Source: Synechococcus sp. PL34863bin_39
GTDB lineage: Bacteria > Cyanobacteriota > Cyanobacteriia > PCC-6307 > Cyanobiaceae
Reading direction: 5' to 3'
Length of the DNA: 12,874 nt
Assembly (NCBI GenBank): GCA_011523155.1
Contig: WTHL01000207.1
Span: 1-12,874, forward strand
Part shown: positions 1,785 through 12,874 of the stretch, piece by piece
Numbering within the stretch: the stretch's first letter is position 1
Layout: each line of letters starts with the position of its first letter
Notes under the pieces: model-generated
What the model was told of the DNA's origin: nothing
Database searches by the model: none
The model's input: the letters and a program-made list of their open reading frames with translations, nothing else
Made by a program: the position numbers and the translations under genes

Positions 1785-2623
1785 GCGAGCCCGGCATCCA
1801 TGCCGTCCCCTCAGCCAATGATCCCTTTGCTGGCCCCGACAGCCTGTTCAATCGTCTCGAGGGCTGGACCTGGATCGGTTGCTACGGGGGCTACTACCTG
1901 AGCAGTGACCTGCTTGCGGAGGCCGGGTTTGAGCAGGGGTTCTTCACACGCCGGTGGCAGGGGCGCGAGCCGGATGCGCTGACCACCTATCTCTCGGCTG
2001 GTGTCACTGTCCATCGTCCGAGACAGGTGCATGGCAGCACTGTTCTCAACGCCTCAAAGGCCGATCGTTCCCCCTGGCCTGATGCCGATGGGCTGGTGAG
2101 TGACCGGGGCAGCCAGAGTCTCTGGGTCTGTGGTGCTGACTGCACTCCCGTGCTGATCGCCGATCCCCTGTCTGGCCATGTCGCGGCCTGCCATGCCGGC
2201 TGGCGTGGCGTCGCAGGTCGGATTCTTCCGGAGGCGATCAGCCGTCTGGAGGAACGGGGCGGAGACAGGGGACAGCTGCTGGTGGCGCTTGGCCCAGCGG
2301 TCAGTGGTCCCAACTATCAGGTGGAGGAATCCGTCGCGGCCCAGGTGCGGAAATCGCTGACGGGCGACAGCCTCGTGGACGAGCCCACGGAGGTGTCGGC
2401 ACTGCTTGACCAGGTGGTTCAGCCCGATGAGGAAGCGGGACATTGCAGACTTGACATCCGCGCTGCCGCGGCCCTGCAACTGATGGCAGCCGGTGTTGAT
2501 CCGGCCCACATCAGTCGCTGTCCACTCTGCACCGTGGCAGAGCCGGATCTGTTTCATTCCTGGAGACGCGATCAGGTGAAGGCTGTCCAGTGGAGCGGGA
2601 TTGTCTCCCAGGCTCCCGACTGA
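1781..2623 (+). CDS. pgeF: Peptidoglycan editing factor PgeF (YfiH/laccase-domain, Cu/Zn-type oxidoreductase fold)
   Basis: The 280-residue protein shows the whole PgeF/YfiH signature: QVHGSTV (His84), DADGLVSD, GADCTPVLIADP (Cys121) and ACHAGWRG (His138). The His-Cys-His trio corresponds to the metal ligands of E. coli YfiH. Further blocks are ALGPAVSGPNYQVEE (about 169-183) and the C-terminal DIRAAA...CPLCT. In E. coli PgeF removes wrongly incorporated amino acids from the muropeptide stem; relatives including human LACC1 also have purine nucleoside phosphorylase/adenosine deaminase activity. No signal peptide is seen, so it is cytoplasmic. The start overlaps the Tab2-family stop (ATGA). 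The gene ends one base before the stop of the convergent oxidoreductase gene, so there is no room for a terminator between them. Family assignment is secure; which activity matters here is not known. Confidence 0.93.
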   Translation: MSEPGIHAVPSANDPFAGPDSLFNRLEGWTWIGCYGGYYLSSDLLAEAGFEQGFFTRRWQGREPDALTTYLSAGVTVHRPRQVHGSTVLNASKADRSPWPDADGLVSDRGSQSLWVCGADCTPVLIADPLSGHVAACHAGWRGVAGRILPEAISRLEERGGDRGQLLVALGPAVSGPNYQVEESVAAQVRKSLTGDSLVDEPTEVSALLDQVVQPDEEAGHCRLDIRAAAALQLMAAGVDPAHISRCPLCTVAEPDLFHSWRRDQVKAVQWSGIVSQAPD

Positions 2624-2624
2624 C

Positions 2625-4307
2625 TCACGACACGGGGTGGGTGACCTCAGCCATCAGGCGCAGGGCAACCGCTTCAGCAGCCCTGATCCCGTCGATCGCT
2701 GCGGAGAGAATGCCTCCGGCATAACCGGCACCCTCTCCGGCGGGGGTGAGGCCTGCGGTGTTGACCGATTCCAGATCGGAGGTGCGTGGCAGACGCAACG
2801 GTGATGACGTGCGTGTCTCCACGGCCGTGAGCAGGGCATCGGGATGGTTGTAGCCGGGCAGCCGCCGTGCGAACGCAGGCAGAGCCTCCTGCAGCGCCTC
2901 GATCATGGCGTCCGGGAGAGCCTGTCGCAGATCCGCCGCTCTGATACCAGGTTGGTAAGACCCCTGAATGGTCCCGAAGGCCTGGGTCGGACGGTCGGAA
3001 AGAAAGTCATCCAGTCGCTGGGCCGGCGCGCAGTAATCAGCACCTCCGAGAGCAAACGCCTTCTCCTCGAGGGCACGTTGCAAGGCGACACCAGCCAGTG
3101 GGTCACCGGGAAAGCGCTGATAGGGCTCAAGGTCTTCCTCCAGCACAGGCACCACAAGCCCACTGTTGGCATTGCGTTCATTGCGGGTGTGCTGACTCAT
3201 GCCATTGGTCACGACGCGTCCGGGCTCGCTGGTGGCGCCCACCACCAGGCCACCGGGGCACATGCAGAAGCTGTAGACGCAGCGCCCGTTTTCCGCATGG
3301 TGGACCAACTTGTACTCAGCGGCACCGAGTTGCGGATGGCCGGCCTGCGATCCCCAGCGAGCCTGATCAATCAGAGCCTGGGGATGCTCGATGCGGAAAC
3401 CGACAGCAAACGGCTTCGGCGTCATGGCCACGCCACAGCGTTCCAGCATGGCGAAGGTGTCGCGGGCCGAGTGCCCCGGCGCCAGAACCGCATGGCGACA
3501 GGAAATGTCAACCCCGTCCTCGAGACGAACCCCAACAAGCTGGCGGCGATCGCTCGGATCACCGGCTCCCGGCAGAGGCTCGAGAATCAGCTCATCCACC
3601 CGCGCTCCGAAGCGCACCTCACCGCCGAGCTGCTCGATACGCGATCGGAGGCCTCGCACCACCGTCGCCAGCTTGAAGGTGCCGATATGGGGACGATGCA
3701 CGGTGAGGATCTCGGGATTGGCACCGCTGGCCACGAGCTCCTCAAGAACCTTGCGCCCGTAGTGCTCAGGATCGCTCACCTGGCTGTAAAGCTTCCCATC
3801 CGAAAAGGTGCCGGCCCCTCCCTCCCCGAACTGGACGTTGGACTCAGGCTTGAGAGCACCTGTGCGACGCCAGAAACCGAATGTGTCCGACGTTCGCTGC
3901 TTGATGGGCTGGCCACGTTCCAGGAGCAGGGGACGAAACCCCATCTGCGCAAGAACAAGGGCGGCGAAGTAACCGCAGGGGCCGGCACCGATCACCACCG
4001 GGCGACCGGTTCCCGTTCGTCCGAAGTCCGGAGGAGCCGTCGCCACGGGGCGATAACGGGTATCCGGCGCCTGCCTGAGCCGCTTGTCAGCACGATGCTT
4101 GCGGAGAAGGGCGGATTCACCTTTCACCTCGACATCCAGGCTGTAGATGAGCTGAATCCGGTCACGCTTTCGCGCATCAATACTGCGCTTGATCAGACGA
4201 TGGCTGATCAGGCGCTCCGGAGGAATGCGCAATCGTTTCAGGATCGCCGCGTCAAGGTCGTCGGGACCATGATCGAGGTGCAACCGAACCTCGCTTAAAC
4301 GCAACAC
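2625..4307 (-). CDS. FAD-dependent oxidoreductase/dehydrogenase (COG2509-like)
   Basis: This 560-residue protein begins with a small domain (about residues 1-80; MLRLSEVRL...LKRLRIP...SIDARKRD) typical of the COG2509 FAD-dependent dehydrogenases. A Rossmann dinucleotide-binding motif follows (VVIGAGPCGYFAA, glycines 107-112, acidic Glu130 ending the second strand). Downstream family blocks include FGEGGAGTFSDGKLYSQ, VLAPGHSARDTF, KPFAVGFRIEHPQ, CMCPGGLVVGATSE and, near the C-terminus, LTPAGEGAGYAGGILSAA. The family is widespread in bacteria and plastids, but its physiological substrate is not established. The start is GTG, chosen because MLRLSEV is the usual N-terminus of such proteins. It is the last gene of the minus-strand run, 32 bases after the binding-protein-like gene, and ends one base from pgeF. 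There is no signal peptide or membrane helix, so it is probably cytoplasmic. Confidence 0.87.
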   Translation of the reverse strand: MLRLSEVRLHLDHGPDDLDAAILKRLRIPPERLISHRLIKRSIDARKRDRIQLIYSLDVEVKGESALLRKHRADKRLRQAPDTRYRPVATAPPDFGRTGTGRPVVIGAGPCGYFAALVLAQMGFRPLLLERGQPIKQRTSDTFGFWRRTGALKPESNVQFGEGGAGTFSDGKLYSQVSDPEHYGRKVLEELVASGANPEILTVHRPHIGTFKLATVVRGLRSRIEQLGGEVRFGARVDELILEPLPGAGDPSDRRQLVGVRLEDGVDISCRHAVLAPGHSARDTFAMLERCGVAMTPKPFAVGFRIEHPQALIDQARWGSQAGHPQLGAAEYKLVHHAENGRCVYSFCMCPGGLVVGATSEPGRVVTNGMSQHTRNERNANSGLVVPVLEEDLEPYQRFPGDPLAGVALQRALEEKAFALGGADYCAPAQRLDDFLSDRPTQAFGTIQGSYQPGIRAADLRQALPDAMIEALQEALPAFARRLPGYNHPDALLTAVETRTSSPLRLPRTSDLESVNTAGLTPAGEGAGYAGGILSAAIDGIRAAEAVALRLMAEVTHPVS

Positions 4308-4339
4308 CTCTGTCCACGTCCCGGAGCGCCTCCAAAACC

Positions 4340-5602
4340 TTACTCAGCCGCGACCAGGCTCACCTTGGCAGTCCCGGAGGGAGCCTGTCCTGGCCTCAGC
4401 GCAAAGTCGCTGGCAACACCCCTGAGCCGGGTGGCCTGGCCGGATCGCCGGAGGTCGATCGCCCCGCAGAGTTCCTGCGGCTCCGCGGAGGGATCCAACC
4501 AACCAAGCGGATCACGGCGACCATCACTGGCGAGGGGAAGAGGTCCGGCCATGGTCAGTGCCAGCACCCTTGCGGTTTCAAACCCTGCCGCAGCCATCAG
4601 CCCAGGCTCGGTCCCCCAGCGCCGCAGGAAGGCATCGGCAAAGCTCGACCAGGCAGGGCCTTGGGCTGGTTGTTCAAGCGCCAACTGCGTCCAATCCTGG
4701 GCGGGGAGGTGACGGGAGCGGTGGGCGCTGAGAAGCCAGATCCAAGCCAAACGTCGTCCAGCAACGTCCTGCTCCTGGCGCTGTCGCAACTGGCGGACGA
4801 GATCGCCATCAGGATCGGCCGCCACCACGAGGGCATCAGGGCCCAGCCAGGCGATGTCCTGATCAAGACGTGCGAGATGCTCAGGGGAGTCGCCCGTCAG
4901 CAGCTGGACTTTCTGCTCGGTGTAGGAGAGAACTTCACCACCTAGCTCCTCGAACAGAGTGACGAAATCAATCGCCCTGTCGGCGTCGATGGAAGGATCT
5001 CGCACCACGAACACCCTCGTCCAGCCACGGCTGATGGCGCCTTCCGCCAATGCTTGCCAGTCATCACGATGGGCTGGCAGCAGGGGCCATAGGCGCGACC
5101 GACTCTCCAGCCTCTGAAGGCGGTCCAGGGAAGAGCCCCGTTGATGACCGAGAATCAGTTGAGCATCACCGGCATCCGCGAGACGGCCATAGGTGTCGAG
5201 ATCAGCGGCATAGGGTGCCACCAGAAGCGGTGGGAGGATCGGGGTTCCGCTTGTTCCACGGGGAAACAACGAGGCTGGATCGGCATCGCCTGGCAGGGAG
5301 TGGAGATCAAGAGCGGGAGCGTCGGCACGGCAGGCCAGCACGGACTCTTCACCGAGCCTGAGCCCCTGAAGAAAAACCTGTTTCGCGCCCTGCAGACCGT
5401 CGGGCATCACAACCGCCACCGGGGACCGGGTCAGCCGGCTTGCTGCCATGGCCTGACACCCGAGGACACTGGCGATCACCACCGCAACGGTCTTGAGACG
5501 CAACGGAGCCGGTCGGTTCCAACGCAGACCCCGAAGACGTTGCATCAGTCCAGTTCGCTGACCACGGGAAGGATCGTCGGCAGACGGGAGCATCGGGACC
5601 AT
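4340..5602 (-). CDS. Periplasmic-binding-fold protein (type I, Leu/Ile/Val-binding or LppC-like), exported
   Basis: This is a 420-residue protein with an N-terminal export signal: a basic stretch (RLRGLRWNRPAPLRLK) then a hydrophobic core (about 38-53) ending VLGC at Cys49, which could be a lipobox, or AMA-A for ordinary signal peptidase. The mature part resembles type I periplasmic-binding proteins: RGWTRVFVVRD followed by FEELGGEVLSY, an alternation typical of the second lobe, and a late FLRRWGTEPGLMAAAGFETAR block like the end of branched-chain amino-acid binding proteins. No permease or ATPase genes are nearby, so a transport role is not supported; a cell-envelope role like LppC/LpoA is an alternative. 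Start choice is uncertain: ATG at 5602 lies 15 bases after the upstream TAG, and a later in-frame ATG at 5545 also keeps the signal peptide. Neither has a strong ribosome-binding site. Confidence 0.72.
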   Translation of the reverse strand: MVPMLPSADDPSRGQRTGLMQRLRGLRWNRPAPLRLKTVAVVIASVLGCQAMAASRLTRSPVAVVMPDGLQGAKQVFLQGLRLGEESVLACRADAPALDLHSLPGDADPASLFPRGTSGTPILPPLLVAPYAADLDTYGRLADAGDAQLILGHQRGSSLDRLQRLESRSRLWPLLPAHRDDWQALAEGAISRGWTRVFVVRDPSIDADRAIDFVTLFEELGGEVLSYTEQKVQLLTGDSPEHLARLDQDIAWLGPDALVVAADPDGDLVRQLRQRQEQDVAGRRLAWIWLLSAHRSRHLPAQDWTQLALEQPAQGPAWSSFADAFLRRWGTEPGLMAAAGFETARVLALTMAGPLPLASDGRRDPLGWLDPSAEPQELCGAIDLRRSGQATRLRGVASDFALRPGQAPSGTAKVSLVAAE

Positions 5603-5617
5603 CCCAGCTGCTTCACG

Positions 5618-5836
5618 CTAGGGAGAGTGGTTCTCGCCGTCTGGTTTTGTGACAGGGCCTGATCCAGGCAGGAGATAGGCCAGGCCTCCGGCCGCCATGA
5701 GAGCCACACCAAGGCCGATGGCCAGAGGGCGGTTGGGACCGGCCGCCTCCGTCCACAGCGCCGTGCTGAGAAACGCCGCCCCCAGAAGAAGGCAGGGCAC
5801 CATCACGACACCGGCAGCAACGCTGTTCCTCGCCAT
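5618..5836 (-). CDS. Small two-helix membrane protein, unknown function
   Basis: The 72-residue product has two hydrophobic segments, about residues 6-29 (AAGVVMVPCLLLGAAFLS) and 36-56 (PLAIGLGVALMAAGGLAYLL), separated by a short polar turn, and a polar Pro/Asp-rich tail. It is probably an inner-membrane or thylakoid hairpin. I do not recognise a family. It starts two bases after the stop of the nuclease-like gene and ends 15 bases before the binding-protein-like gene, so it is almost certainly co-transcribed with both. It ends in TAG, and the downstream gene is in the same reading frame with no other stop between them. An overlapping frame on the same strand (5613-5855) gives a low-complexity product and was not preferred. 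Reality of the gene is supported by its hydrophobic pattern and tight spacing. Confidence 0.68.
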   Translation of the reverse strand: MARNSVAAGVVMVPCLLLGAAFLSTALWTEAAGPNRPLAIGLGVALMAAGGLAYLLPGSGPVTKPDGENHSP

Positions 5837-5838
5837 GG

Positions 5839-6225
5839 TCAGGTGGTGGGGGCACAGCCAGGCCTGGCCAACCCGGCAGCGACCAGGGTCGTGGTCAGAT
5901 CCTGGTCCTGACCCAGGGGGGTGACGCGGGCCACGAGCGCGCCATCGACCGAACCTTCGGGCCTCAGGTTGACCCGCTGACGGCGAGGCAGGGCCTTCCT
6001 GAGAAAGTCAACGGCTGCGGTCTCATCATCAGGGGAGACATCCACACACGCGAGTTGAACGGTGTAATTCCTGTTGTGATCACCAATCTGAAGAATCGAG
6101 GAGGTGCGGACCTGAAGGACTTCAGCGGCCATGACGGGGAGGACTGCCATGGCCAGCGCCAGCACGAGCAGTCCACAGGACAAGACACCTCGGACGAGCA
6201 GGGTGGGGGATGGACGCCATCGCAT
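5839..6225 (-). CDS. Small exported protein with degenerate staphylococcal-nuclease-like domain
   Basis: The preferred start is the ATG at 6225, whose A is also the last base of the ilvB TGA (TGATG), giving 128 residues; the open frame extends further upstream but only antisense-like within ilvB. Residues 1-34 are a signal peptide: basic [12 protein letters not shown], hydrophobic core to about 31, cleavage likely after VMA. The mature part (VLQVRTSSILQIGD...YTVQLACVDVSPDDETA...GSVDGALVARVTPLG...LVAAGLARPGC) follows the order of strands in staphylococcal-nuclease (SNase/thermonuclease) domains. However, the active-site Arg expected in the VRLxGID-like strand is Gln (VQLACVD), and the Arg of the G-R-x-L-A motif is Ala (DGALVAR). 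It is therefore probably not an active nuclease. Cys60 and Cys124 could form a disulfide after export. The fold assignment is inference from motif order. Confidence 0.72.
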   Translation of the reverse strand: MRWRPSPTLLVRGVLSCGLLVLALAMAVLPVMAAEVLQVRTSSILQIGDHNRNYTVQLACVDVSPDDETAAVDFLRKALPRRQRVNLRPEGSVDGALVARVTPLGQDQDLTTTLVAAGLARPGCAPTT

Positions 6226-8078
6226 CAGAGCGACGCGCCACAGGACGGACAGAAGCGGTGGTCGTGGTCGGTCACCGAGCCGCAGGCACCACAGGTTCTG
6301 GTCGCATCCATGGCCAGCTCCGGGTGAGAGGGGAGGCCCACCATCTGCGCATTGCTGCATCCCGGTGGCACCATCGGGTAACAGTTTTCGCCACGCCGAA
6401 CCCGGACATCAATGAGCATCGGTCCCGGGGATGCCAGGGCCTCACGCAATCCGGACACCAGCGCATCGCGGCTGTCGATCCGGACACCCCCGACACCGAA
6501 GGATCTGGCGAGAGCGACGAAATCAGGCATCCCTGTCTGCATGTTGGATGCCGAATAACGCTCGTCGTAGAAGCTTTCCTGCCACTGACGCACCATCCCC
6601 TGCCACTGGTTGTTGACGATCACAACCTTCACCGGCAGTTGGTACTGGGCCAGGGTCCCCAGTTCCTGGATGTTCATCAGGATGCTGGCATCACCGGCCA
6701 CACAGACCACGGTGCTGTCGGGGCAGGCCGCCTGGGCACCCATGGCGGCAGGCATCCCGAATCCCATGGTGCCAAGGCCTGCGCTGCTGATCCACTGACG
6801 AGGGCCATTGCGCAGATACTGGGCCGACCACATCTGGTGTTGGCCGACGTCAGTGGTGACGATCGCTCCTGCAGCCAGATCACGCAGGGCGATCAACACT
6901 TCCTGGGGATAGATCTCACCCTCCGGCTGAGGAACGGTCAAGGGATAGCGCTGCTTCCAGGTCGCGATCGTTCCAAGCCAGGTCGACGTGGAAGGTTTGA
7001 GCTCCCGTTGTCGGCTGTGATCGACGAGTTGCGCCATGCTGACTGCTAGATCACCAAGCACAGCCACATCAGCCCGGCGGGTTTTACCGATCTCAGCGGG
7101 ATCGATCTCGAAGTGAATCACCTTGGCCCTGGGCGCAAAGGTGTCGAGCTTCCCGGTGACGCGATCGTCAAACCGTGCACCGACAGCAATCAGGAGATCG
7201 CACTCGGTGACGGCGAAGTTCGCGTAGGCAGTCCCGTGCATGCCGAGCATGCCGACGGACAGGGGGTCATTCTCATCGAAGGCACCCTTCCCCATCAGCG
7301 TGGTGGTGACAGGCAGTTGATGCAGACGGGCCAGCTCGGCGAGAGAGGCATGGACACCGGCAGAGATCGCCCCGCCTCCGACGTAGAGGAGCGGCCGTTG
7401 CGCGGCCTGAATCAGATCAAGGGCGGCGTCCAGAGCGGCCGGATCAGGTCTGATCGGCAGGCGGAATCCCGGGGGGACAACGGAACCGGGCTCAACGGGC
7501 ACGTAATCGAACGTCTCCTGCCCGACATCCTTGGGGATGTCGATCAGGACAGGACCGGGACGGCCTGAGGCGGCAATGAAAAACGCCTGGGCCACCACGG
7601 ATGCCAGGTCAGCCGGGTCGCGCACCACCCAGGAATGCTTCACGATCGGCAGGGTGATGCCGAAGATGTCGGTTTCCTGAAACGCATCGGTCCCGATCGC
7701 CGGACGGGGCACCTGACCGGTGATCACGACCATCGGTACGGAATCCATCTGGGCGGTGGCGATGCCGGTCACCAGGTTGGTGGCACCCGGTCCCGATGTG
7801 CCGAAACAGACCCCGACCCGGCCCGTGGCTCGGGCGTAGGCATCGGCCGCATGGGTGCCGGCCTGTTCATGACGAACCAGGATGTGCCGCACCCAACCCT
7901 GCGCCTCAGCGATGTGGAGGGCGTCATAGATCGGCAGGATCGCGCCGCCTGGATAACCAAAAATCGTGTCGACGCCGTGACGTCGCAGGGCGTCCATCAG
8001 GGCCTCAGCACCGGTGATCCTTTGTTTGCCGTCCTCGCGGGAGGCACCAGGGATCGTTGGCGCGGAAGTCAGGGTCAC
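6225..8078 (-). CDS. ilvB: Acetolactate synthase large (catalytic) subunit with C-terminal zinc-ribbon-like tail
   Basis: This enzyme condenses two pyruvates to acetolactate, or pyruvate with 2-oxobutyrate, as the first shared step of Val/Leu/Ile synthesis, using thiamine diphosphate, Mg2+ and FAD. The 617 residues contain the N-terminal ThDP domain ([16 protein letters not shown]; catalytic Glu71 in [19 protein letters not shown]), the central domain ([38 protein letters not shown]) and the C-terminal ThDP-binding motif ([12 protein letters not shown]...VNNQWQGM, about 462-494). After the normal end (CYPMVPPG) comes an extra segment with CGACG at 596-600 and CPSCG at 610-614, which looks like a zinc ribbon. 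The start is GTG at 8078; the next in-frame ATG (residue 28) would cut into the conserved domain. No ribosome-binding site is evident, and a potential hairpin lies 14 bases upstream. The small regulatory subunit is not in this window. Confidence 0.96.
6240..6293 (-). other. Zinc-ribbon-like CxxC...CxxC motif at the IlvB C-terminus
   Basis: Within the ilvB frame, Cys596, Cys599, Cys610 and Cys613 form two CxxC knuckles ten residues apart (C-G-A-C, then C-P-S-C-G at the very end). The spacing and the FCPSCG ending are like small zinc-ribbon domains. A typical acetolactate synthase ends soon after the CYPMVPPG block, so this is an added element. Zinc binding is inference. Confidence 0.75.
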
Positions 8079-8091
8079 AGCGTCGTCACAC

Positions 8092-8121
8092 AGGGCCGAC
8101 CCTCAATTTAAGGGCCGACCC
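8092..8121 (-). promoter_or_regulatory. Paired 11-base direct repeat / potential mRNA hairpin between hemH and ilvB
   Basis: AGGGCCGACCC occurs on the + strand at 8092-8102 and again at 8111-8121. On the minus-strand transcript each copy core reads GGGUCGGCCC; because this sequence is nearly self-complementary, the two copies can pair as a 10-bp stem (eight Watson-Crick and two G-U pairs) around the 9-base loop UUAAAUUGA. The opposite-strand RNA would have A-C mismatches instead, so the fold favours the hemH-ilvB direction. The hairpin starts 22 bases after the hemH stop and ends 14 bases before the ilvB GTG. No U-run follows, so it is not a standard intrinsic terminator. It could be a processing or translation-control element, or a tandem protein-binding site. 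Confidence 0.6.
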
Positions 8122-8143
8122 GCCGAGTGGAGTCAATCGAGGC

Positions 8144-9319
8144 TCAGAGGAGTCCCAGAGCGTGCAGTGGGCCATGGCCACTGAACACCTCCAGCAGAAA
8201 TGCGGAGAATCCGAGCATGGCCAGACGACCGTTCCAGACCTCGGAACTGTTGTTCCATCCCCATTCCCACTTTTCCTGGGGGTAGAGCTTCACGGTGGTG
8301 GGAAGCTCAGCAGCCTGATCCAGGTTCACCTCAGGGCCATCAAGACTTGCGGACACCATGTCGGCCAGCCCCTTGATGAAGGGTGGGTAGGTGTCCAGGG
8401 CACGGACACGCCGGAAATTGACGACGCCTGACTCCGTGGCGAGCTCCCTGTATTCGATATCAATCTCCTCGAGCGTCTCGATGTGCTCGCTGACGAAACT
8501 GATGGGAACCACCACGAGATCGCGGGTCTTGGCTTCACCGAGAGCCTCCAGTGCCTCTTCGGTGTAGGGCTTGAGCTATTCCACGGGGCCGACCCGACTC
8601 TGATAGGCAAGGGTATGGGGATTGGAGGTTCCGAGAATTGATTTGAGCTCCTCAATGATCAGGGCAGTGCATGCCTCGATCTGCTGCTGATAGGGATCAC
8701 CGGCCTCTTCCACATAGCTCTTGGGAACGCCATGGGCACTGAAGAACACGTGGGCCTCCTCTGGCACGTCGGAAGCGCGGATCTCTTCCGCAATCAGTTC
8801 GGCCATCGATCGGACGTAGCCCGGATGATCGAACCAGCTACGGATACAGCGAAGAGGAAGCTTCTGGAAGTCGGGGTCGAGGAGGCGGAGGCGCTGCAGC
8901 TCGCGGAAGCTGGATCCGCTGGTGCTGATGGAGAAATGGGGGTAAAGGGGCAGAACCACCACCTCATCAATGCCATCGGCCTTGATGTCGGCAACGGCCG
9001 ACTCGGTGAAGGGGTGCCAGTAACGCATGGCCACATAAGAGGTGGCCTCGATCCCGCGTTGCCTGAGCTCACTCTGCAGTTCACGGGCCTGCTGCTCCGT
9101 GATGCGCCGCAGGGGCGAGCCTCCGCCGATCGAGCGATAGGCCTCCTGCGATTTGCTGCTGCGCAGCGTGCTGATCAACCAGGCGAGAGGCTTCTGAAGG
9201 GCCGGATTGGGGAGACGAATGATCTCCGGATCAGCGAAGAGGTTGTAGAGAAACGGGCCGACGTCCTGAATCCGTTCCGGCCCCCCGAGGTTGAGAAGAA
9301 GGACACCGACTCGGGCCAT
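8144..9319 (-). pseudogene. hemH: Ferrochelatase with C-terminal CAB/HLIP helix, interrupted by an in-frame amber codon
   Basis: Ferrochelatase inserts Fe2+ into protoporphyrin IX to make haem. Read through the stop, the frame encodes 391 residues, the normal length of the cyanobacterial/plastid form. It has [15 protein letters not shown] at the start, [12 protein letters not shown] (63-74), [11 protein letters not shown], the catalytic His196 in [11 protein letters not shown], a GP-V-E-x-L-K-P-Y-T block (244-252) and catalytic Glu281 in [19 protein letters not shown] chlorophyll-binding helix lies at about 359-380 ([12 protein letters not shown]). Codon 248 (8576-8578) is TAG where the family has Trp (GPxxWLxPxT). 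The frame is unchanged and both sides are well conserved, so a single G-to-A change of TGG explains it. The truncated product would lack Glu281 and be inactive. Sequencing error, a recent mutation or suppression are all possible. It lies upstream of ilvB on the same strand and is divergent from the recombinase gene. Confidence 0.9.
8576..8578 (-). other. In-frame TAG codon inside hemH
   Basis: The + strand reads CTA here, giving TAG as codon 248 of hemH. The neighbouring codons encode G-P-V-E before it and L-K-P-Y-T after it, matching the ferrochelatase motif in which this position is Trp. One base (C to T on the + strand at 8577) separates it from TGG. Confidence 0.95.
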
Positions 9320-9397
9320 GGATAGCCGCTCGCTGAAAGGGACTTGAGCGTAACCCCCACAGACGGCATGGTGGCTGCGTCATACCGGCGGCGCCCA
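9320..9397. promoter_or_regulatory. Shared upstream region of divergent hemH and recombinase genes
   Basis: Only 78 bases separate the hemH ATG from the preferred recombinase start, so promoters for both transcription units must lie here or inside the coding ends. I cannot assign -35/-10 boxes with confidence: the minus strand has a TATGAC-like hexamer around 9381-9386, but no convincing partner. Neither start has a strong ribosome-binding site. Confidence 0.4.
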
Positions 9398-10600
9398 ATG
9401 GGATCGAGCGAGGATCTGGCTGGTGCGATTTCCTCCGTGAACTCCGACCTTGAAGGTGAGGGGATTCGACTGCGGATCGAACAACGCGGCCAGCGTTTGA
9501 ACCTGCGAGGCCCTCTGCCGTGTCGCACAACAGCGGAACGAACCAGAGTTCAGCGGATCAGCCTTGGGGTGCAGGCGGATCCCCAGGGTCTGCAGGAAGC
9601 CCGGCAATTGCTGCACATGGTGGACCTGCAGCTGCGGCGCGGCCAGTTCGACTGGGGCCAGTGGCGTCGCGACAGGCCCCTCCGGGATCCAGGCACAGCC
9701 CCCCCCGCCGCGGCCAAGGACCTCCACCGCCGCGAGCGGCTCAGCCATCAGGTGGAGAGTTTCGAGCAGGCCTTTTTCAGTGATCCGATGCGCCGGCGTT
9801 CCGCATCAGGAAGTCGCACCACCTGGACATCGGCCTATCGCCCCTATCTCCGGCGCCTGCTGAAAATTGCCGGGGACAACGACCGTGAACTTGATACAGA
9901 ACTTTTGGCGCAGACCCTGAACAGCTACGCCGATGGCAGTCGCAGTCGTCAGCAGTGCGCCACGAGTCTGGGCGCCTTCGCCAGGCACGTGGACGTGAGC
10001 CTGCCCGAGAACTGGCGTGCCGAAGCCGCCGGATACGGCCTGCATCGCGCACGGTTCCGACACCTCCCGGGTGACACCCAGATCCTTGAAACGGTGCTGC
10101 AGATCCCGAATCCCGGCTGGCGATTCGCCTTTGGTCTGATGGCCACCTATGGATTGCGCAACCACGAGGTGTTCTTCACCGACCTGAGCGCTCTCGCGCC
10201 GGGAGGGGACAGGGTGATCCGCGTTCTGCCCACCTCGAAAACGGGCGAACATCAGGTCTGGCCGTTTCATCCCGACTGGGTTGACCGTTTCGGCCTGCTG
10301 GAGCTGGGGCTGGACCCAAAGCGACTGCCCGCCGTCTGCACCGATCTCAGGCGCACGACGCTGCAACAGGTGGGGCGCAGAGTCGCGGAGCAATTCCGGC
10401 GTTACGACCTGCCACTCACCCCCTATGACCTGCGGCATGCGTGGGCGGTCCGCACCATTCACATCGGCCTGCCAGACACTGTCGCCGCCAGGATGATGGG
10501 CCACTCCGTTGCGATCCACACGCGGACCTACCACCACTGGATCACCCGACGTGATCAGCAACAGGCGGTGGATGCAGCGTTGGCACGCCACCCGGCTTGA
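9398..10600 (+). CDS. Tyrosine recombinase/integrase-like protein, apparently chromosomal resident
   Basis: The 400-residue product has an N-terminal part (LRIEQRGQRLNLRGPLP), an SAM-like core-binding segment (about 125-190) and a C-terminal catalytic domain of the phage-integrase family. Visible catalytic positions are Arg254 (TYGLRNHEVF), Lys281 (LPTSKTGEH), Arg346 (TPYDLRHAW), His369 (MMGHSVAIHT) and the nucleophile candidate Tyr378 (RTYHHW), nine residues after the GHS His as in XerC/D. The box II His of HxxR is Tyr343 instead. A DNA strand-exchange activity is plausible but unproven. The start is uncertain: ATG at 9398 is preferred by resemblance of the N-terminus; ATG 9368 and TTG 9344 are in frame. 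No att site, tRNA or other phage gene lies nearby. It sits three bases before a methyltransferase gene, pointing to a shared operon with housekeeping genes rather than recent insertion. Confidence 0.82.
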   Translation: MGSSEDLAGAISSVNSDLEGEGIRLRIEQRGQRLNLRGPLPCRTTAERTRVQRISLGVQADPQGLQEARQLLHMVDLQLRRGQFDWGQWRRDRPLRDPGTAPPAAAKDLHRRERLSHQVESFEQAFFSDPMRRRSASGSRTTWTSAYRPYLRRLLKIAGDNDRELDTELLAQTLNSYADGSRSRQQCATSLGAFARHVDVSLPENWRAEAAGYGLHRARFRHLPGDTQILETVLQIPNPGWRFAFGLMATYGLRNHEVFFTDLSALAPGGDRVIRVLPTSKTGEHQVWPFHPDWVDRFGLLELGLDPKRLPAVCTDLRRTTLQQVGRRVAEQFRRYDLPLTPYDLRHAWAVRTIHIGLPDTVAARMMGHSVAIHTRTYHHWITRRDQQQAVDAALARHPA

Positions 10601-10603
10601 TTC

Positions 10604-11251
10604 ATGACGTCATTTCTGCGACCCCTCGCTTACCGCTACCGCTGGATCTACGACGCGGTCACCGCAATCTCCTCCTTGAGCGTTGGCGGTGTGGACCGTC
10701 TGCGGCGGCTGGGTGTGGATGCGTTGGGTCATCGCCTCCCACCCGCAGCCGAGGTGCTTGATCTCTGCTGCGGGAGTGGCGAAGCGGCTGCTCCATGGAT
10801 TGCAGCCGGGTTCAACGTGACCGGGCTTGACGTATCACCACGGGCGCTGGATCTGGCGCAGATCCGCCATCCCCGGATGCAGCGCGTTGAGGGCCTTGCA
10901 GAGCAGCCACCCCTGGAGCCAGAACGCTTCGATGCCATTCAACTGAGTGTGGCCCTGCACGAATTTCCCCGTGACGCCAGGCAGGAGGTGCTTCAGGGAT
11001 GCCTCCGACTGCTCCGTCCAGGCGGATGGCTCGTCCTTGTGGACCTGCACCCGGCGGGCGCTCTGCTGAAGATCCCCCAGCAGATTTTCTGCGCCTTGTT
11101 TGAAACCGACACGGCCACCGCCATGCTGGAGGACGATCTGCCGTCCGAGCTGCGGAGGCTCGGCTTCATCTCCGTCGACCAGGAGCTGCTGGCCGGAAAC
11201 GCTCTTCAGCGGATCACCGCAGCTCGCCCCATGCGATCCGAACAACCATGA
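10604..11251 (+). CDS. Class I SAM-dependent methyltransferase
   Basis: This 215-residue protein has a Rossmann-type methyltransferase core: motif I VLDLCCGSGE (51-60), an acidic residue ending the second strand (Asp76 in GLDVSPRALDLA), motif II-like RFDAIQLSVALHEFP (108-122) and the LLRPGGWLVLVDLHP strand (136-150). The LHEFP and LRPGG blocks resemble the ubiquinone/menaquinone (UbiE-like, Methyltransf_11) group, but the substrate cannot be told from the sequence. The length is about that of a stand-alone methyltransferase. There is no signal peptide; the N-terminus (LRPLAYRYRWIYDAVTAISSL) is mildly hydrophobic and may touch a membrane. It starts three bases after the recombinase stop, and its stop overlaps the CobO start (ATGA), so it is very probably translated from the same mRNA as both. 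Confidence 0.87.
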   Translation: MTSFLRPLAYRYRWIYDAVTAISSLSVGGVDRLRRLGVDALGHRLPPAAEVLDLCCGSGEAAAPWIAAGFNVTGLDVSPRALDLAQIRHPRMQRVEGLAEQPPLEPERFDAIQLSVALHEFPRDARQEVLQGCLRLLRPGGWLVLVDLHPAGALLKIPQQIFCALFETDTATAMLEDDLPSELRRLGFISVDQELLAGNALQRITAARPMRSEQP

Positions 11252-11913
11252 CCAACAGCAACCTGGACAAGACGGCGGCTGAGCTGGGGATGGGTGGAAA
11301 CCTGGCACCGGAACAGGACGATGCCGGCTACCGCAGACGGATGGAACGTCGCCAGGAGGTGCAGCGCCAGCGGGTGGAGGAACGCAACAAGGAAAAAGGT
11401 CTGGTGGTGGTGACAACGGGCCATGGCAAAGGCAAAACCACCGCTGGCCTTGGACTTGTGCTGCGAACCCTCGGCCATGGCGAGCGGGTCGCCGTGGTTC
11501 AGTTCATCAAAGGTGGCTGGGAGCCGGGGGAAGCCAGGGCCCTCAAGGCATTCGGAGACCAGGTCGCCTGGCATGCCCTCGGCGAAGGCTTCACTTGGGA
11601 GACCCAGGATCGGCAGCGTGATCAGGACCTGGTGGCCAGGGCCTGGGACACGGCGCTTGGTTACCTTCGCGATCCCGGGATCAAGCTGGTGCTTCTCGAC
11701 GAGCTGAATGTGGCCCTGAAGCTCGGTTACATCGACGTGGAGACGGTGATCACAGGGCTGCGTGAGCGTCCCGAGCTTTGCCACGTGGCGGTGACCGGAC
11801 GGGGAGCACCCGAAGCCCTGATCGAAGCGGCCGACCTTGTGACCGAAATGAGCCTGATCCGTCACCCCTTCCGCGAACAGGGGGTGAAGGCGCAGGCGGG
11901 GATTGAGTACTGA
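11248..11913 (+). CDS. cobO: Cob(I)yrinic acid a,c-diamide adenosyltransferase (CobO/CobA/BtuR type)
   Basis: The 221-residue enzyme transfers the adenosyl group of ATP to the cobalt of a corrinoid, a late step in (pseudo)cobalamin synthesis or salvage. It shows the family ATP-binding P-loop GHGKGKTT (58-65), VVQFIKGGW (about 84-92), WETQD, the LVLLDELNVALKLGYID block with the conserved DELN (about 150-165), RPELCHVAVTGRGAP and the terminal HPFREQGVKAQAGIEY, which is very typical. A charged N-terminal stretch (residues 28-50, RRRMERRQEVQRQRV) precedes the P-loop, as in CobO proteins. Its ATG overlaps the methyltransferase stop, implying coupled translation. Marine Synechococcus generally make pseudocobalamin, which fits. 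It ends three bases before the stop of a convergent small gene. Confidence 0.95.
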   Translation: MTNSNLDKTAAELGMGGNLAPEQDDAGYRRRMERRQEVQRQRVEERNKEKGLVVVTTGHGKGKTTAGLGLVLRTLGHGERVAVVQFIKGGWEPGEARALKAFGDQVAWHALGEGFTWETQDRQRDQDLVARAWDTALGYLRDPGIKLVLLDELNVALKLGYIDVETVITGLRERPELCHVAVTGRGAPEALIEAADLVTEMSLIRHPFREQGVKAQAGIEY

Positions 11914-11916
11914 TGT

Positions 11917-12102
11917 TCAGACCGGCTTGAGATCGTCCTTGAGCAGACCTGCTGCCGCGGTCAGGACCGAGAGTCCACTCACCAGCAGAGCGCGATGCAC
12001 GACAGGGTCACTCCAGCAGGAGGGATCCTGACTGGCACGATCCAGGGCTGACAGCGTCAGTCGGGCCAGCACACCGCTGCGGGGTTTGCCTTCGTCTGAC
12101 AT
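11917..12102 (-). CDS. Small hypothetical protein with one hydrophobic segment
   Basis: The 61-residue product reads as a genuine small protein: a polar start (MSDEGKPRSG), an amphipathic stretch (VLARLTLSALDRASQDPSC), and one hydrophobic segment at about 37-54 (HRALLVSGLSVLTAAAGL) followed by a charged end (LKDDLKPV). It may be a single-pass or peripheral membrane protein. I do not recognise a named family. It is transcribed towards cobO, with three bases between the two stops, and away from pyrH, sharing the 114-base spacer as its upstream region. Compact fit between neighbours and balanced composition support it; short length keeps confidence moderate. Confidence 0.6.
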   Translation of the reverse strand: MSDEGKPRSGVLARLTLSALDRASQDPSCWSDPVVHRALLVSGLSVLTAAAGLLKDDLKPV

Positions 12103-12128
12103 GGGGCGATCCCGGTTACGCCATCAAA

Positions 12129-12175
12129 GCGCTTTTTGCACGGCTGACCAGACCCTCTGACGTGCTGAAAAAGGC
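12129..12175. repeat. Interrupted inverted repeat in the spacer upstream of pyrH
   Basis: The left arm GCGCTTTTTGCACG (12129-12142) and the right arm CGTGCTGAAAAAGGC (12161-12175) pair over 13 positions with a one-base and a two-base bulge, around an 18-base loop. A perfect 10-base palindrome AAAGCGCTTT (12126-12135) overlaps the left arm. It lies between the divergent starts of the 61-residue gene and pyrH, so it may be an operator or a leader structure. Function is not established. Confidence 0.4.
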
Positions 12176-12187
12176 TGCAAAGGCACT

Positions 12188-12196
12188 TGCTACTGT
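12188..12196 (+). promoter_or_regulatory. Candidate extended -10 element for pyrH
   Basis: TGCTACTGT matches an extended -10 (TG, one base, then TAnnnT). It would place transcription start near 12203, giving a very short leader ahead of the AGGTGG ribosome-binding site at 12207-12212. No good -35 hexamer is seen at normal spacing, so this is a weak call. Confidence 0.25.
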
Positions 12197-12216
12197 CAAA
12201 AAGATCAGGTGGATGA

Positions 12217-12874
12217 ATGGCTTACAAGCGTGCCCTGCTCAAACTCAGCGGCGAAGCGCTGATGGGTGACCAGGGATATGGGATTGATCCGGCGATCGTC
12301 CAATCCATCGCCTCGGACGTCGCCAAGGTGATGGCTGGAGGAACGGAACTGGCGATCGTGGTCGGTGGAGGCAATATCTTCCGCGGCCTCAAGGGCTCCG
12401 CCGCCGGCATGGACAGAGCCACAGCGGACTACGTCGGAATGCTTGCGACCGTGATGAACGCCATCACCCTCCAGGACGGGCTTGAACGGGCGGGCGTGCC
12501 GACCCGGGTGCAGACCGCGATTGAGATGCAGGAAGTCGCGGAGCCCTACATCCGCCGCAAGGCCATCCGCCACCTCGAGAAGGGGCGTGTTGTGGTGTTC
12601 GGAGCTGGCTGCGGCAACCCTTTCTTCACCACTGACACCACCGCGGCCCTGCGGGCCGCCGAGATCAGCGCCGATGTGGTGTTCAAGGCCACGAAGGTGG
12701 ATGGGGTCTACGACAAGGATCCCGCCAAGCACGACGACGCTGTCAAACATGAGCACCTGACCTTCCAGCAGGTCCTCAGCGGGGAACTGGCCGTCATGGA
12801 CAGCACCGCCATCGCCCTCTGCAAAGACAACAACATCCCCATCGTGGTCTTCAATCTGTTTGAACCTGGCAACA
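12217..12874 (+). CDS. pyrH: Uridylate (UMP) kinase, 3' partial
   Basis: PyrH phosphorylates UMP to UDP in pyrimidine nucleotide synthesis, usually as a GTP-activated, UTP-inhibited hexamer of the amino-acid-kinase fold. The first 219 residues are present and the window ends inside the gene, probably about 20 residues short. Family motifs are clear: LLKLSGEAL (7-15), the GGGNIFRG nucleotide loop (50-57), [16 protein letters not shown] (75-90), [19 protein letters not shown] (129-147), [14 protein letters not shown] (156-169) and [12 protein letters not shown] (194-205). The start is the ATG at 12217, preceded by a good AGGTGG ribosome-binding site; the ATG at 12213 is out of frame. At residue 132 the usual GTGNPFF Thr of E. 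coli-type enzymes is Cys. Confidence 0.97.

Follow-up and report, generated by a model that had tools for sequence, protein, structure and literature searches.

The stretch of DNA analyzed here (the window, 12,874 bases) contains a ferrochelatase gene, hemH, in which an amber codon, TAG, stands in place of a tryptophan codon. Comparison with relatives indicates a private one-base change, for which an error in the record is the most likely explanation and a rare null mutation a less likely one. The TAG is probably a sequencing, amplification or assembly error that entered the consensus of a single record; on this explanation, an otherwise normal chromosomal hemH, TGG at this codon in relatives versus TAG here, would differ at one base, and the host would be a marine Synechococcus-like cyanobacterium. 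We infer that the record, rather than a living cell, is at fault and that the gene is functional. None of the other copies examined carries the TAG allele, the haplotype also occurs with Trp at this site, and the sequence that follows the stop is unchanged.

The hemH frame occupies positions 8144–9319 on the minus strand, with its ATG at 9319 and its terminator TGA at 8144, and encodes a ferrochelatase with a C-terminal CAB/Hlip-like helix. It comprises 391 codons, giving a product of 391 amino acids when the TAG is counted as a residue. The plus strand reads cta at 8576–8578, which is TAG on the minus strand and forms codon 248; a count of the frame finds no second internal stop, so that this codon is the sole interruption, as a preliminary description of this DNA had stated. 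That description had also called the gene otherwise intact, which the domain match bears out: Pfam family PF00762 spans residues 4–324 of the read-through HemH (E = 6.4e-116), covering profile positions 2–315 of 317 with a score of 387 bits versus a cut-off of 27. In an alignment with mitochondrial ferrochelatase structures (2qd3 among others), which we take to be human, codon 248 pairs with the Trp of the sequence VGPMPWLGP, and Trp occupies this site in all 120 listed database proteins, in agreement with the earlier claim that the residue lost is a conserved Trp. Residue 281 of the read-through frame, downstream of the TAG, pairs with the Glu of the HIETL motif in the same structures (e.g., 2qd3), presumably the catalytic Glu. 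As had been proposed, Glu281 and the CAB helix both fall beyond the stop, within the downstream part of 143 codons (8147–8575, minus strand).

According to one report, the catalytic domain of the Synechocystis ferrochelatase consists of residues 1–324, and ferrochelatase that lacks only its CAB helix stays active (PMC3563542). A HemH product that terminates at residue 247, which would contain only the part encoded upstream of the stop (247 codons, 8579–9319, minus strand), should be dead. A split gene was also considered, in which translation re-initiates at the GTG at 8515; such an arrangement would omit residues 248–268.

A protein database search reveals 16 proteins with 99–100% identity to the read-through HemH, the next best match being at 94%. 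These 16 proteins sit on 74 contigs, with P0002 on 51, P0005 on 8, P0001 on 2, and 13 of the 16 on one contig each. P0001 matches the read-through product at every letter, having both W248 and I222, whereas the 15 other variants (99–100% identity, 72 contigs) have W248 and Met at residue 222. Codon 222 of the window copy (8654–8656, minus strand) is ATT (Ile), and Met is present in 15 of the 16 near-identical proteins; I222 is thus shared only with P0001 and marks a haplotype. The window shares this residue with two other contigs and so represents a real haplotype rather than a generally garbled sequence. The longest P0001 contig has 12,610 bases, fewer than the 12,874 of the window, and the record of the window itself is therefore unlikely to be either of the two; these two contigs may stem from the same sample.

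Measured against P0002, the commonest protein of the population, the part upstream of the stop carries one difference (M222I) and the part downstream none (0 of 143 residues). This result upholds the earlier claim of family-like flanks free of decay, and it rules out an old pseudogene. When the 247-residue form was used as the query, which would tie at the top with full-length relatives, no protein of that length was found among the best 120 of 7899 matches. When the post-stop part served as the query and a length filter removed full-length relatives, the C-terminal fragments among the best 120 of 718 matches did not exceed 95% identity; because the database groups proteins at 90% identity, a further truncated copy could hide inside a cluster.

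The DNA of relatives gives the same picture at codon 248, which is TGG in each of the 106 loci holding the motif (128 loci fetched; 93 distinct stretches), the remaining 22 having been obtained with a tRNA pattern or with bases 11248–12874 as the query. Matches to hemH are present in 386 of 400 family genomes, at least 10 of which match only weakly (E of ~1e-6 to 1e-3), and there is no internal stop in hemH among the matches listed from these 400 genomes. The closest genomes among 31 of the genus of genome G001 show 82–83% DNA identity over hemH and 80–81% over 11248–12874, with 94–95% protein identity for HemH. Over 2174–12874 the window aligns collinearly with Synechococcus sp. UW140 (L001), with the same locus and gene order, and its hemH lies at the usual chromosomal locus.

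In five comparisons (L001, L002, L085, L086, and L087), dN/dS is 0.022–0.047 before codon 248 and 0.017–0.027 after it; the values for L002 and L085 are identical, leaving four independent comparisons, and synonymous differences are near saturation, with L003 saturated and L007 lacking a frame. Relative to these more distant relatives, purifying selection on hemH is strong both before and after codon 248. Purifying selection and an unchanged post-stop sequence together imply that the TAG is either very recent or not real.

If very recent, the TAG would be a genuine nonsense mutation confined to a single cell or clone, which would destroy the ferrochelatase, would be disappearing from the population, and would have been caught by low-coverage or single-cell sequencing. 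We consider this unlikely, although it has clear points in its favor: a single base is changed, the sequence after the stop is without decay, I222 ties the window to a real haplotype, and about 0.048 nonsense changes are expected in hemH for each missense change. Against these stand the strong purifying selection that flanks codon 248 and the single hemH found in 14 of 14 relatives, which suggests that selection would be expected to act against a dead copy. Judging also by its copy number, hemH is presumably essential in cyanobacteria. A consensus, moreover, is normally built from several reads, and a lethal allele would seldom provide that many. In the literature, we found no report on a premature stop codon in a Synechococcus ferrochelatase.

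The near-identical proteins also provide a background against which the TAG can be judged. Among the 74 contigs, the 13 with single-contig variants account for 16 private amino-acid changes. Three of these changes cluster in a stretch of four residues and several introduce proline or serine; changes of these kinds look error-like. Single-base changes in hemH yield 0.047–0.049 nonsense changes per missense change (transition weights of 1, 2, and 4), such that ~0.8 nonsense change is expected beside the 16 private changes if unselected, a rough figure as the independence of the contigs is not established. Where errors or rare mutations occur at this rate, one internal TAG is unremarkable. Counting against an error in the record, the 12 frames of the window contain no further internal stop or frameshift, and the record shows no outward sign of poor quality. 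The preliminary description had listed four explanations, namely error, recent mutation, a second hemH, and read-through. The first two are favored by the Trp haplotype on two contigs, the TGG in 106 of 106 loci, and the ~0.8 nonsense change expected; the last two are not favored.

The function could be supplied by another, intact hemH at a different place in the genome, the window copy being newly dead. By analogy with relatives, we judge this very unlikely: PF00762 finds one match in each of 14 relative genomes, 29 of the 31 genomes of the G001 genus have one match that spans at least 1161 of the 1176 bases (of the other two, G325 has no match and G335 one of only 35 bases), and the window hemH, collinear with UW140, is the usual chromosomal locus. 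Two genomes from the 400-genome family draw speak for a second copy, G127 and G189, each of which has at least two full-length hemH matches among the matches listed. These double matches are at 82–83% identity, and two of the fetched loci, L054 and L056, both from one Vulcanococcus MAG, fit the places in G189. The copies in G127 and G189 may be true duplicates or the product of mixed bins.

Translation through the TAG, whether a suppressor tRNA or read-through were responsible, would yield a full-length ferrochelatase, and the frame does stay intact 3′ of the stop. This explanation appears less probable still, since none of the 120 listed proteins and none of the 106 loci has the TAG in common with the window, and programmed read-through is ruled out by the same observation; the stop is not conserved, with Trp in 120 of 120 listed proteins and TGG in 106 of 106 loci. 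Least probable of all is a lineage with an amber suppressor tRNA, for instance a phage-borne one or a mutated tRNA-Trp, that would tolerate TAG at a conserved Trp as an early stage of codon capture. The codon does not recur at other Trp positions, as reassignment of UAG to Trp would predict: the 12 frames of the window hold 65 in-frame TGG codons versus 1 TAG. Genes that end in the window do so with TGA (10) or TAA (1; n = 11), and the use of TAG as a terminator is accordingly not shown by the window alone; hemH itself, however, ends in TAG in 14 of 82 loci of relatives. A reassigned code is ruled out by these two results together, the 65 TGG versus 1 TAG and the TAG-ended hemH loci.

The search for a decoding tRNA points in the same direction. 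No tRNA was found within the window, and in 14 relatives a pattern for a tRNA with a CUA anticodon gave 101 matches versus 323 with a reversed control. ARAGORN, applied to 20 of the 101 candidate places, identified seven tRNAs, five Arg(tct) and two Glu(ttc), none with a CUA anticodon. Titles and the opening lines of abstracts in the literature on read-through, amber codons, and suppressor tRNAs in cyanobacteria describe no such case.

With respect to the origin of the DNA, a viral source is rejected, as relatives of hemH are absent from viral_contigs and there is no phage match, and a plasmid source is rejected as well, the lone match in plasmids covering 4% of the query and lying in ilvB. 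The ilvB frame (acetolactate synthase, 6225–8078, minus strand) carries a short zinc-ribbon-like tail at residues 593–615 that matches PF13248 at E = 7e-4, below the cut-off. Of the first 12 relatives, L001, L002, L006, L008, and L013 have a similar CxxC...CPxCG tail, which is missing or broken in others, e.g., L003, L004, L007, and L011. Directly adjoining hemH is a divergent integrase-like ORF (9344–10600, plus strand; PF00589 at E = 9e-6, just below the cut-off). As far as 10590 the DNA aligns collinearly with that of Synechococcus sp. UW140 (72% DNA identity), and this ORF therefore looks like a resident gene. Two further frames, 4340–5602 and 5839–6210 (both minus strand, the start of the latter set arbitrarily), have no Pfam match at E = 0.001. 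Within hemH, bases 1083–1113 (8207–8237, minus strand) find matches of ~30 bases at 82–100% identity at second places in many of the 31 genomes of the genus; these probably reflect the Hlip/CAB helix that HemH has in common with small high-light-inducible proteins.

An error in the record thus being the reading that we prefer, the case is of value mainly as a warning: before recoding is invoked for a single stop in an essential gene from an environmental record, near-identical copies of that gene should be consulted. Were the TAG borne out by reads, the gene would become a test case for the tolerance of null alleles, or for suppression, in marine picocyanobacteria.

In-frame stops are recoded in several known settings, including UAG read as pyrrolysine, UGA read as selenocysteine, and reassigned UAG. 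The window hemH resembles such genes in having an in-frame stop that is followed by intact sequence. Unlike in recoded-stop genes, the stop here is unconserved, the homologues have Trp, hemH ends in TAG in 14 of 82 loci, and no decoding tRNA is seen in the window or in the 20 places of relatives submitted to ARAGORN. The closer likeness in sequence is to the HemH of marine Synechococcus with its CAB/Hlip-like helix: read through, the protein has 94–95% identity to Synechococcus sp. RS9916 and UW140 and 99–100% to the population of database proteins. From these marine Synechococcus HemH proteins, the window copy is set apart solely by TAG in place of the Trp codon 248 and by I222, the latter shared with P0001.
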